From Fusobacterium sp. DD2 (lineage in GTDB: Bacteria; Fusobacteriota; Fusobacteriia; Fusobacteriales; Fusobacteriaceae), in contig NZ_JADRHM010000002.1 in NCBI RefSeq assembly GCF_018205345.1, positions 1-64,000 on the forward strand: a stretch of DNA of 64,000 nucleotides. Reading direction: 5' to 3'. The position numbers and the translations under genes are program-made. This document shows, in pieces, positions 16,818-19,556 of the stretch (its first letter is position 1; the number at the start of each line of letters is the position of its first letter). Under the pieces are notes generated by a model. It did not search any database, was not told where the DNA came from, and saw only the letters and a list, made by a program, of their open reading frames with translations.

Positions 16818-17813
16818 CTATAGGAATTTTGCTCCTATTTTTGCAAATTCTTCAACCATTTCTTCTGGCCAGCAAGATGCTTGAACTTCTCCAATATGAA
16901 GTTTTTCAAGGAAGAACATACAGATTCTTGATTGTCCAATTCCTCCTCCAACTGTATAAGGAAGTTCTTTAGCAAGTAGAGCTTTATGGAATTTTAATTC
17001 TTTTCTATCTTCTCTATTTGCAAGTTTTAATTGAAGGGCAAGAGTTTCTTCACTTACTCTTATTCCCATTGATGATAATTCAAAAGCTTGCTCAAGTATT
17101 GGGTTCCATACTAAAATATCTCCATTTAGTTCCCAGTCATCATAGTCAGGAGCTCTTCCATCATGTTTTTCTCCAGATTTTAAAGTCTTACCAATTTGAG
17201 ATATAAATACTGCTTTATACTCTCTGCAGATTTCATTTTCTCTTTCTTTAGCTGTAAGTTCTGGATATCTATCTTCTAATTCCTGTGATGTAATAAAATA
17301 TATATCCTCAGGTAATTTTTTAGAAAATACAGGATATTCTCTATTTACATACTCTTCTGTTTTTCTTAAAGCATCATAGATTCTCTTTACTATTTTTTGT
17401 AAAGTCTTAGTTGTTCTTTCAGCTTTGTCAATTACTAATTCCCAGTCCCATTGGTCAACATACATAGAGTGGATATTATCTAAATCCTCATCTCTTCTGA
17501 TTGCGTTCATATCTGTATAAAGTCCAGTGTGTACAGGAAATTCATATCTTTTTAGAGCCATTCTTTTCCATTTAGCAAGTGAATGAACTATTTGATATTC
17601 TTCCTTTGCATCCCAGTGTGTATCAAACTTTACAGGTCTTTCCATACCGCTTAGATCATCGTTCAATCCAGAAGACTTTCTTACGTATAGTGGTGCAGAA
17701 ACTCTTGTTAGGTTAAGTTCATAAGCTAGAGCTCTTTCAAAAAAGTCTTTTACTTTTTTAATAGCCACCTCTGTTTCGAAAAGATCTAGTTTGCAGTCAT
17801 ACTTTTTTTCCAT
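16818..17813 (-). CDS. asnA: Aspartate-ammonia ligase (asparagine synthetase A)
   Basis: A 331-residue ammonia-dependent asparagine synthetase, almost the same length as E. coli AsnA (330), making Asn from Asp, ammonia and ATP. Family motifs include SSGLNDDLSGMERPV, DTHWDAKEEYQIVHSLAKWKR, DMNAIRRDE, SMYVDQWDWE and the terminal GGGIGQSRICMFFL. The fold is that of class II aminoacyl-tRNA synthetases. I take the ATG at 17813, placed 8 bases after GAGGAGT. A GTG at 17822 lies inside that site. The gene is preceded by a leader peptide with five Asn codons and an attenuator, so its transcription is probably tuned by charged tRNA-Asn. Confidence 0.97.
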   Translation of the reverse strand: MEKKYDCKLDLFETEVAIKKVKDFFERALAYELNLTRVSAPLYVRKSSGLNDDLSGMERPVKFDTHWDAKEEYQIVHSLAKWKRMALKRYEFPVHTGLYTDMNAIRRDEDLDNIHSMYVDQWDWELVIDKAERTTKTLQKIVKRIYDALRKTEEYVNREYPVFSKKLPEDIYFITSQELEDRYPELTAKERENEICREYKAVFISQIGKTLKSGEKHDGRAPDYDDWELNGDILVWNPILEQAFELSSMGIRVSEETLALQLKLANREDRKELKFHKALLAKELPYTVGGGIGQSRICMFFLEKLHIGEVQASCWPEEMVEEFAKIGAKFL

Positions 17814-17864
17814 TAATCTCACTCCTCTATAAATAAAATATTTTTATAAACCTTAGCTATTAAT

Positions 17865-17897
17865 AAAAAAGCCATTCGGTTGCACCCGAATGGCTTT
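17865..17897 (-). terminator. Attenuator terminator in the asnA leader
   Basis: A perfect 12-bp stem (17886-17897 with 17868-17879 on the minus strand), loop of six, followed on that strand by six T. It lies after the leader peptide stop and 52 bases before the asnA ATG. So it must be read through for asnA expression. Confidence 0.88.
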
Positions 17898-17990
17898 ACT
17901 TACAATGTCGGGTACAAATCGTTTTAATCTCAAAAAGGATTTGTACCACAAGTAGAATACCTATACTACTTAAAGTCCAAATCTCGACAT
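17882..17990 (-). promoter_or_regulatory. Competing leader RNA pairings upstream of asnA
   Basis: Besides the terminator, the minus-strand leader can form: a hairpin over the leader stop codon (17971-17966 with 17955-17950); a 10-bp perfect hairpin (17947-17938 with 17920-17911); a closing stem ATGTCG/CGACAT (17990-17985, the two codons after the Asn run, with 17910-17905); and an 8-bp pairing GTACCCGA/TCGGGTGC (17915-17908 with 17889-17882). The last excludes both the 10-bp hairpin and the terminator, so it could act as antiterminator. Confidence 0.6.
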
Positions 17991-18041
17991 ATTATTATTA
18001 TTATTAAATTGTGCAGTTATTCCAAAAATAAGCGTTTTCAT
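17970..18041 (-). CDS. Asn-rich leader peptide of asnA
   Basis: A 23-residue reading frame, ATG at 18041 and TAA at 17970, with GGAGG 6 bases before the start. The peptide starts MKTLIFGITAQF, then has five consecutive Asn residues (all AAT codons, 17991-18005), then MSRFGL. A consensus promoter lies about 25 bases upstream and an intrinsic terminator about 70 bases downstream, just before asnA. This is the layout of ribosome-mediated attenuation: shortage of charged tRNA-Asn would stall the ribosome on the Asn run and let transcription continue. It has no features of a functional protein. No T-box signature (specifier stem, AGGGTGG core) is apparent. Confidence 0.85.
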   Translation of the reverse strand: MKTLIFGITAQFNNNNNMSRFGL

Positions 18042-18073
18042 CTTCTGCCTCCAACTATTAATATCTACCAACT

Positions 18074-18102
18074 AGGATACACTTTTTTGAAAGAAATGTC
18101 AA
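18074..18102 (-). promoter_or_regulatory. Promoter of the asnA leader
   Basis: A perfect TTGACA (18102-18097) and TATCCT (18079-18074) are 17 bases apart on the minus strand. Transcription would begin near 18067, 15 bases before the leader peptide ribosome site. Confidence 0.75.
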
Positions 18103-18196: not shown

Positions 18197-19360
18197 CTAT
18201 TTATTCATCTCTTCTAAAACTTCTTTTAAAGCTTCTACTTTGTTACATTTTTCCCATGGAAGATCTAAATCTGTTCTTCCTATATGTCCAAATGCTGCAA
18301 GATCTTGATATTTAAAGTTTCCACTTCTTAATTCAAGAGCTTTTTCTATTCCTCTAGGACTTAAATCAAATACTTTTGCAACAGCTTTAGCTAAATCAAT
18401 TTCACTAGCTCTTCCTGTTTTAAATGTATCTACTTTTATTGAAGTAGGTTCTACTACACCAATAGCATAAGATAATTGTACTTCACATTTATCTGCAAGG
18501 TCAGCAGCAACTATGTTTTTTGCTACCCATCTAGCAGCATATGCAGCAGATCTGTCTACTTTTGAAGGATCTTTTCCAGAAAAAGCTCCTCCACCATGTC
18601 TAAAGTATCCACCATATGTATCAACTATTATTTTTCTTCCTGTAAGGCCTGTATCACCATGTGGACCTCCGATTACGAATCTACCAGTAGGATTGATATG
18701 GTACTTGTTAACTTTGCTTGGATCAAGGTCATACGCCTCTAGAACAGGAACTATAACTTTCTCTATAACATCCTTTTTAATCTCTTCTTGAGTTACATCA
18801 GGATTATGTTGTACTGATAATACTATTGTATCAACGTGATCTATTCTTCCAAATTCATCATAAGCAAGTGTTACTTGAGATTTTGCATCTGGTCTAGCCC
18901 ATAGAAGTTCATTACTTCTAGTAAGTCTTGTAAGTCTAACAATGATTTCTCTTGCTAATACAAGTGCAAGTGGCATAAGTTCTGGAGTTTCTCTTACAGC
19001 TCCACCAAACATTATTCCCTGGTCTCCTGCTCCACCTGTATCTACTCCCATAGCGATATCTGGTGATTGAGAATGAATTGCAGATAATACTCCACAGTTT
19101 GCATCAAATCCCATTCCTTCAGAATATCCTATTTCAGCAATTTTACTTCTTACAATATCTTGAACATCTATATAAGTTGAAGTAGTAATTTCTCCACCAA
19201 CAATAACTTGTCCTGTAGTACAGAACACTTCACATGCTACTCTTGAGCTTGGGTCATCCTTAAGACATGCATCTAATACAGCATCTGATATTTGGTCTGC
19301 AACCTTATCAGGGTGTCCAGGTGATACAAATTCAGATGTAAAATAAGTTAAATTTTTCAT
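18197..19360 (-). CDS. metK: S-adenosylmethionine synthase
   Basis: A 387-residue methionine adenosyltransferase making SAM from Met and ATP in the cytoplasm. The ATP-binding [17 protein letters not shown] motif opens the protein. The central [10 protein letters not shown] hexapeptide region and the phosphate-loop [22 protein letters not shown] are intact. Length matches E. coli MetK (384). The ATG is preceded by GGAGG. It stands alone between its own terminator and a SAM-I riboswitch, so its product represses its own synthesis. A consensus promoter lies beyond the riboswitch. Confidence 0.98.
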
Positions 19361-19413: not shown

Positions 19414-19556
19414 AAAAAAATCCCTTCATCCTCTGATAGATGAAGGGAATATATAACAATTTTATATTCCATCTATCAGGAGTTAGCACCACACTTCATA
19501 AAAAGCAGGTTGCTGAGATGTCACAGGGCCGGTCCCTCAATCTCTCTTGATGGTTA
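19414..19556 (-). promoter_or_regulatory. SAM-I (S-box) riboswitch of metK
   Basis: On the minus strand the conserved S-box elements occur in order: CCATCAAGAGAG (P1 5' side), GAGGGACCGGCCCTGTGA, CAGCAACC, GTGCTAACTCC, and a P1 3' side pairing with CCATC (19554-19550 with 19473-19469). Then a strong terminator follows (19448-19439 with 19430-19421, seven T). The sequence GATAGATG after the aptamer can pair with CATCTATC and so form the competing antiterminator. With SAM bound, P1 holds and transcription stops before metK. Confidence 0.95.

Follow-up and report, generated by a model that had tools for sequence, protein, structure and literature searches.

The asnA gene of Fusobacterium sp. DD2 is preceded by a short ORF with five consecutive Asn codons, a set of competing RNA helices and an intrinsic terminator, and this leader is, very probably, a transcription attenuator in which the ribosome serves as the sensor of charged tRNA-Asn. 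Attenuation of the trp/his type, governed by the charging of tRNA-Asn, had been proposed for asnA in a first-pass annotation of this DNA, and the conservation of the leader in related genomes, the covariation of its helices and the lack of a T-box all argue for such regulation. The element is the Asn version of an RNA scaffold that is found upstream of at least 12 kinds of amino acid genes in Fusobacteriaceae, and the scaffold copies are likely to share common descent. In what follows, the window is the whole stretch of DNA that was analysed, 64,000 nucleotides long (contig NZ_JADRHM010000002.1 of assembly GCF_018205345.1, positions 1 to 64,000); coordinates are window positions, and all parts of the asnA leader are on the minus strand.

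Organization of the asnA leader

The leader is located between metK (18197-19360, minus strand), the gene directly before it, and asnA (16818-17813), which lies downstream on the same strand and encodes aspartate--ammonia ligase, or asparagine synthetase A (NCBIfam TIGR00669, 359.9 bits compared with the cut-off of 292.8). A SAM riboswitch (RF00162, 65.9 bits) is present at 19466-19556 on the minus strand, upstream of metK. The leader itself starts with a -35 hexamer, TTGACA (18097-18102), and a -10 hexamer, TATCCT (18074-18079), separated by a 17-nt spacer, and continues with the Shine-Dalgarno sequence GGAGG (18048-18052) and an ORF of 23 codons (17970-18041) for the peptide MKTLIFGITAQFNNNNNMSRFGL, in which the five AAT sensor codons occupy positions 17991-18005. 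A promoter scan by itself was not above chance; a promoter-like pair with the 17-nt spacer is found 5' of the leader in most of the relatives checked, the TTGAC(A/T) hexamer recurs there in many of them, and GGAGG, GAGG or GGAG precedes the leader ATG in relatives.

Downstream of the Asn run, the RNA consists of segments that can form mutually exclusive helices. Segment 1a (AUGUCG, 17985-17990), the codons directly 3' of the run, is complementary to segment 3b (CGACAU, 17905-17910). Segment 1b (GAUUUGGACUUUAAGUAG, 17966-17983), at the end of the ORF, pairs with segment 2 (CUACUUGUGGUACAAAUC, 17938-17955) along 17983-17966 and 17955-17938, a helix (1b:2, denoted 1:2) that was absent from the first-pass annotation. 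The core of segment 2, GGUACAAAUC, pairs either with 1b or with segment 3 (GAUUUGUACC, 17911-17920), in the latter case forming the 10-bp hairpin 2:3 (17947-17938 with 17920-17911). The antiterminator, 3:4, joins the face 17917-17908 to segment 4 (UCGGGUGCAA, 17880-17889), which comprises the top of the 5' arm of the terminator and the loop; the competing 8-bp pairing that was originally noticed (17915-17908 with 17889-17882) is confirmed, and it can be lengthened to 10 bp (17917-17908 with 17889-17880). Segments 4 and 5 are the arms of the intrinsic terminator, a perfect 12-bp stem followed by a U-run (17868-17897). The other parts named in the first-pass annotation, namely the promoter hexamers with their 17-nt spacing, the ribosome site, the 23-codon frame with five AAT codons, the terminator, the hairpin that shares a strand with the antiterminator and the complementarity between 1a and 3b, are all present in the window sequence where they had been placed.

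The window leader folds far more stably than shuffled sequences do (z = -5.3). When the helices possible between the Asn run and the terminator were enumerated and ranked by stacking energy, the top four were the terminator (-22.3), 3:4 (-19.1), 2:3 (-16.5) and 1a:3b (-9.7). Five AAY triplets in a row occur only three times in the 2.36-Mb genome, once in the asnA leader, once within an ORF of 366 amino acids and once in a frame that amounts to only 49 residues from stop to stop. The full arrangement of leader, helices, terminator and asnA was found again in relatives.

Distribution of Asn-run leaders

Among the 98 Fusobacteriota genomes, 78 have asnA, and the upstream regions were inspected for all of these. 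The Asn codons and the stems, the conservation of which in related genomes had been named as a check in the first-pass annotation, are indeed retained, with compensatory changes: 33 of the 47 asnA-bearing Fusobacteriaceae genomes have an Asn-run leader in front of the gene, a count that includes two loci (L002 and L016) where the 5' part or the start of the leader is outside the stretch inspected. About one third of the asnA-bearing Fusobacteriaceae are without the leader. The 33 leaders fall into seven genus groups of Fusobacteriaceae, in whole or in part. The peptide is TAQFNNNNNMSRFGL in the subclade of the window, reads ..INNNNNNMLGFGLK or ..NNNNNNGNMSGFELT in the sister group g5, and is MFKLIITSNNNNNNNNMRGFVYR in g14 and MFINFNNNNYNCxNNNNNNNN.. 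in g3; group g13 has an Asn-run leader as well, and g2 and g11 contribute single genomes. A deep-branching genome outside Fusobacteriaceae (L064) has the asnA leader MKTVVTSIANNNNL. In the asnA upstream regions inspected, the leader is missing from the other subgroup of the window's genus and from g4 and g6, and it was found neither in the 30 Leptotrichiaceae asnA loci nor in any of the 80 asnA loci of a second collection, mostly from Bacillota.

The Asn run is retained in relatives as a mix of AAT and AAC codons with in-frame Ser, Gly, Cys, Tyr, Val and Met interruptions, so that a slipping microsatellite is insufficient as an account of it. The leaders in g3 (L014-L028, L049) have many more Asn codons and different downstream pairings.

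Several loci depart from the common arrangement. In L045 (G055:C38), the leader MFKLITIFNNNNNT is kept, the switch and the terminator are deleted, and the leader stop is about 33 nt from asnA; this is possibly a natural constitutive variant or an effect of MAG assembly. In one close relative (L002), an insertion of about 700 nt, partly masked as N, separates the leader and terminator from asnA. Two g5 genomes have two asnA copies each, every copy with its own Asn leader (L012 and L048 in G030; L013 and L047 in G033), and the asnA copy on G030:C16 has an in-frame TGA inside the gene.

Compensatory changes in the competing helices

Thirteen asnA leaders were aligned (alignment A1), and the helices were further assessed with a swap test, in which the duplex energy of a segment with its own partner is compared with the energies obtained with the partners from other genomes. 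Among the asnA leaders, the cognate partner is better for 1:2 and for 4:5 (in both cases, 0 of 20,000 permutations), for 3:4 (p = 0.0004) and for 2:3 (p = 0.004), with 1a:3b being marginal (p = 0.055). For the control combinations 1:4, 2:4, 2:5 and 3:5, the cognate partner is not better, and these controls weigh more than the p values because sequence relatedness affects all combinations alike.

Counted by individual pairs in the asnA leaders, both sides have changed in 4 pairs of the terminator and in 3 of the 6 pairs of 1a:3b. The letters of 3:4 differ by lineage, with UUGUACCCGA:UCGGGUGCAA in the window, UGAUUUAUGCCC:GGGUAUAAAUCA in L011, GAUUUUAGCCCA:UGGGUUAAAAUC in L017 and GUACCC:GGGUAC in L047; the 4-side of this helix is located partly in the terminator loop, where it is free of the terminator's own constraint. 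On MAFFT columns, the ON structure (1:2 together with 3:4) shows few both-side changes because indels shift the register, and helices defined at the level of individual sequences were used instead, together with the swap tests.

The swap test was also applied to 64 elements of the wider scaffold class described below. It supports 1:2, 3:4 and 1a:3b, also when partners are exchanged only within one amino acid class, and the control pairs are unsupported; in this larger test, 2:3 and 4:5 (S2:S3 and S4:S5) are partly circular because their arms were defined by pairing, which does not apply to 1:2, 3:4 and 1a:3b. The pairing logic put forward from the window alone, with 3:4 set against both 2:3 and 4:5 and with AUGUCG pairing to CGACAU, is thus borne out by compensatory changes. 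In g3 (L014-L028), the Asn leader and the terminator are kept and the pairings are unlike those of the window; there, and this is a lead only, the direct partner of the upper part of the terminator's 3' arm may be the ORF segment AUUUCCRUUA.

Proposed mechanism and the modelled effect of ribosome position

The order of the segments suggests how the leader could work. When asparaginyl-tRNA is scarce, the ribosome would stall on the five AAT codons and cover segment 1a, so that 1a:3b would be blocked and segment 1b would stay free to form 1b:2; this helix would free segment 3 for the antiterminator 3:4, and asnA would be transcribed. When asparaginyl-tRNA is plentiful, the ribosome would reach the stop codon and cover 1b, so that 2:3 would form, segment 4 would pair with segment 5, and transcription would end before asnA. 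The window's genome contains asnS, and because of its presence, direct charging of tRNA-Asn is possible. Ribosome-polymerase coupling in Fusobacteria is an assumption of this proposal, and we infer such coupling, along with the translation of the leader, the stalling, the kinetics and the direction and size of the response to asparagine, from the arrangement of the parts. Directly 3' of the 1:2 hairpin, many elements of the scaffold class share a conserved stretch that resembles AUCCAUUUUG(U) (17938-17930 in the window; also L032, L205 and L199); it is not present in every asnA leader. The spacing of this stretch resembles that of an elemental RNA polymerase pause site, as would be expected if the polymerase and the ribosome are coupled.

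The effect of ribosome position was modelled in equilibrium folds of the transcript, taken as far as segment 4, with the footprint of the ribosome blocked. For the window leader, the antiterminator has the probability of 0.60 with the ribosome stalled on the Asn codons, compared with 0.04 with the ribosome at the stop codon and 0.62 with no ribosome; the respective values for the 2:3 hairpin are 0.06, 0.96 and 0.00. In silico, then, the position of the ribosome would select the structure of the window leader, in the direction needed for induction on starvation. Across the scaffold class, the antiterminator is likelier with the stall than with the ribosome at the stop codon in 52 of the 64 elements (Wilcoxon p = 6e-7). 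The equilibrium switch is absent in many His and Pro members that have very long 2:3 hairpins, and in such leaders, kinetics would have to be invoked to explain switching. The equilibrium fold also predicts basal read-through of an untranslated window leader, which would set it apart from the trp leader of E. coli.

A shared scaffold with exchangeable sensor codons

The extent of the scaffold class became apparent from covariance models. The model R1 was built only from the asnA leaders of the window's subclade and g5, and its next best matches are the asnA leaders of g14 and g13 (E about 1e-10). R1 also matches leaders with other codon runs, namely MMMM before metN and metG (E 5e-5 to 2e-4), HHHHH before the binding protein of an amino acid ABC transporter, PIPP before a gene for a PutP-like symporter and TTKTT before one that resembles threonyl-tRNA synthetase; the gene names for these matches were read from translations and later backed by NCBIfam matches of orthologous loci. 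A broader model, R2, has matches in 50 of the 61 Fusobacteriaceae genomes, with up to 8 per genome, and the Thr, Tyr, Trp and aromatic runs among them were outside its training set. In the window's own genome, R2 has two matches, the asnA leader, which is in the training set of both R1 and R2, and a His leader. The His leader (L208; G000:C1:39464-39618, plus strand) is located outside the window, encodes MEQFLDLSINKKTIHHHHHR and precedes the gene for an amino acid ABC transporter binding protein, which suggests that this gene belongs to a histidine transporter.

To compare leader codons with gene functions, 60 R2 matches were fetched and 39 downstream proteins were scanned with NCBIfam. The codons agree with the downstream gene in all 27 cases with a resolvable specificity or pathway, although these are orthologues in related species, with the number of independent cases being nearer a dozen distinct pairs of amino acid and gene. 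The agreeing pairs are His with hisZ; Met with metG, metN, metY, homoserine dehydrogenase and aspartate kinase; Thr with thrS and asd; Pro with putP; Tyr with tyrS; and Phe, Trp or Tyr with DAHP synthase. Some further pairs are compatible, with the specificity of the protein not being resolvable: His with HisJ-like binding proteins, Trp with a sodium-dependent transporter, and Tyr with AgcS carriers and a TrpX-like binding protein. Among the 39 scanned proteins, the one downstream of L296 had no NCBIfam match.

Two arrangements within the class differ from a single leader before a single gene. The attenuator model matches twice in series upstream of an AgcS carrier that has a Tyr leader (L244:161-307 and 402-529; L255:161-312 and 365-499). 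In G003, near-identical Met leaders (..TTMMNMMPLGVGTKN) precede metY, metN and aspartate kinase (L264, L266 and L267), as if recently duplicated.

Relationship to the trpB motif

The scaffold class overlaps with a published structured RNA, the trpB ncRNA motif (RF04312, SRC-39-1). Narunsky et al. (2024) reported over 900 copies of this motif from Firmicutes and Fusobacteria and considered it a strong candidate for a riboswitch (PMC11109978). The authors did not rule out a classic attenuator and placed the antiterminator in the right shoulder of P1 (PMC11109978). This P1 corresponds to the 2:3 hairpin of the scaffold and P2 corresponds to the terminator; the difference is that the published model begins downstream of the leader ORF. 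RF04312 matches several members of the scaffold class below its gathering score of 59 bits, the best match in Fusobacteriota having 52.4 bits, and the window asnA leader (L001) gives no match up to E = 5. The below-threshold matches in Clostridia include His-run leaders before hisZ and a binding protein as well as Tyr/Phe leaders before transporters.

The copies above the gathering score that were inspected in Lactobacillales genomes (L345-L374) are all accompanied by a leader ORF: each of the 30 has, upstream of the motif, a short ORF with Trp codons that is preceded by a Shine-Dalgarno sequence and ends 9-27 nt before the modelled motif. Two Trp codons are present in 27 of these ORFs (mostly W-Q-S/N-W-R-R) and one in the remaining 3. 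The six proteins tested that are encoded downstream of such copies are TrpB (2) and the tryptophan ABC transporter protein TrpX (4); no earlier report of a trpX leader was found in the open-access literature.

The simplest reading of these sequences is that the trpB motif would be the 3' half of leader-peptide attenuators. More generally, a single scaffold with exchangeable codons (Asn, His, Met, Thr, Pro, Tyr, aromatic and Trp) is probably a ribosome-read counterpart of the T-box in Fusobacteriaceae and parts of Bacillota, with the trpB motif being its 3' half and having no ligand of its own. The Rfam model RF04312 is extendable in the 5' direction, to take in the Trp-codon leader ORF.

Alternative explanations

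The asnA leader might instead be a riboswitch that binds a ligand, or a T-box, sensing asparagine or tRNA-Asn directly, with the ORF being incidental. A terminator together with alternative hairpins would indeed fit a riboswitch, the publication on the related trpB motif put it forward as a strong candidate for one (PMC11109978), and T-boxes are often found upstream of asnA in Bacillota, with 13 of the 40 scanned asnA loci of the second, mostly Bacillota, collection exceeding the gathering score of RF00230. However, a T-box, which the first-pass annotation had itself set against attenuation, was detected with the RF00230 covariance model neither in the window leader nor in the window's genome, and among the 61 Fusobacteriaceae genomes, only 2 have one above the cut-off. 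Furthermore, the Asn run, the frame, the Shine-Dalgarno sequence and the ORF are kept across lineages while the RNA sequence changes, and codon identity follows the downstream gene across the scaffold class, a match that would be unnecessary for a ligand pocket in the 3' half. Direct sensing is, accordingly, a very improbable explanation. No other Rfam families were found in the window leader; chance hits, such as a mir-3119 match in L012, were dismissed.

Even less probable is a role for the leader peptide itself, be it in nascent-chain arrest or as a small protein. Some residues 3' of the Asn run are conserved, as in MSRFGL, MSGFGLK and MRGFVYR, but the N-terminal residues vary freely, and the C-terminal codons that are conserved fall on segments 1a and 1b, so that RNA pairing explains their conservation.

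Finally, the AT-rich composition of the genome, in which (AAT)n can grow by slippage, and the position of asnA downstream of metK on the same strand might point to a chance microsatellite combined with a terminator that merely ends the metK transcript, but this is the least probable explanation given the rarity of five AAY triplets in the genome, the AAC codons and in-frame interruptions in relatives, the promoter-like pair upstream of most of their leaders, and the compensatory changes and versions with other codons before matching genes, neither of which would be expected.

Comparison with known attenuators and implications

As a ribosome-mediated attenuator, the asnA leader would resemble the trp, his, leu and thr attenuators of Proteobacteria, which likewise combine a short ORF with a run of cognate codons, alternating helices, an intrinsic terminator and downstream genes for the same amino acid. 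The differences are the Asn sensor, the occurrence in Fusobacteriota, the five-segment cascade (1:2, 2:3, 3:4 and 4:5) to which 1a:3b is added, and the many amino acid versions on one scaffold that are detected by one covariance model. To our knowledge, the proteobacterial amino acid leaders are unrelated to each other in sequence. In Rfam, they make up separate leader families, for example, RF01859 (Phe_leader).

With the T-box leaders of asnA in Bacillota (RF00230), the Fusobacteriaceae leader shares the regulated gene and the sensing of tRNA charging through premature termination, but the T-boxes bind tRNA directly whereas the proposed sensor in Fusobacteriaceae is the ribosome. A replacement of the T-box by leader peptides with His codons has been described in bacilli, before hisS paralogues and hisZ (Naville and Gautheret 2010, PMC2965389); those leaders belong to a different phylum, and the text includes neither an Asn case nor Fusobacteria (PMC2965389). 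A search of the open-access literature gave no previous description of a leader peptide for asnA. Leader-peptide attenuation as such is already known, and what would be new is asparagine as the sensed amino acid, the phylum and a common scaffold with exchangeable codons.

Asparagine would thus join the amino acids that are sensed by leader-peptide attenuation, and the mechanism would be placed firmly in Fusobacteriota, where T-boxes are scarce. Since asnA is regulated by a T-box in many Bacillota, this would be a clean swap of one sensor for another. The Trp-codon leaders would give a direct, testable answer to the question of what the orphan trpB motif senses. For Fusobacteriota, the interchangeable codon runs on one scaffold offer a ready map of amino acid regulation, in which the leader codons would let transporters of unknown specificity be assigned.
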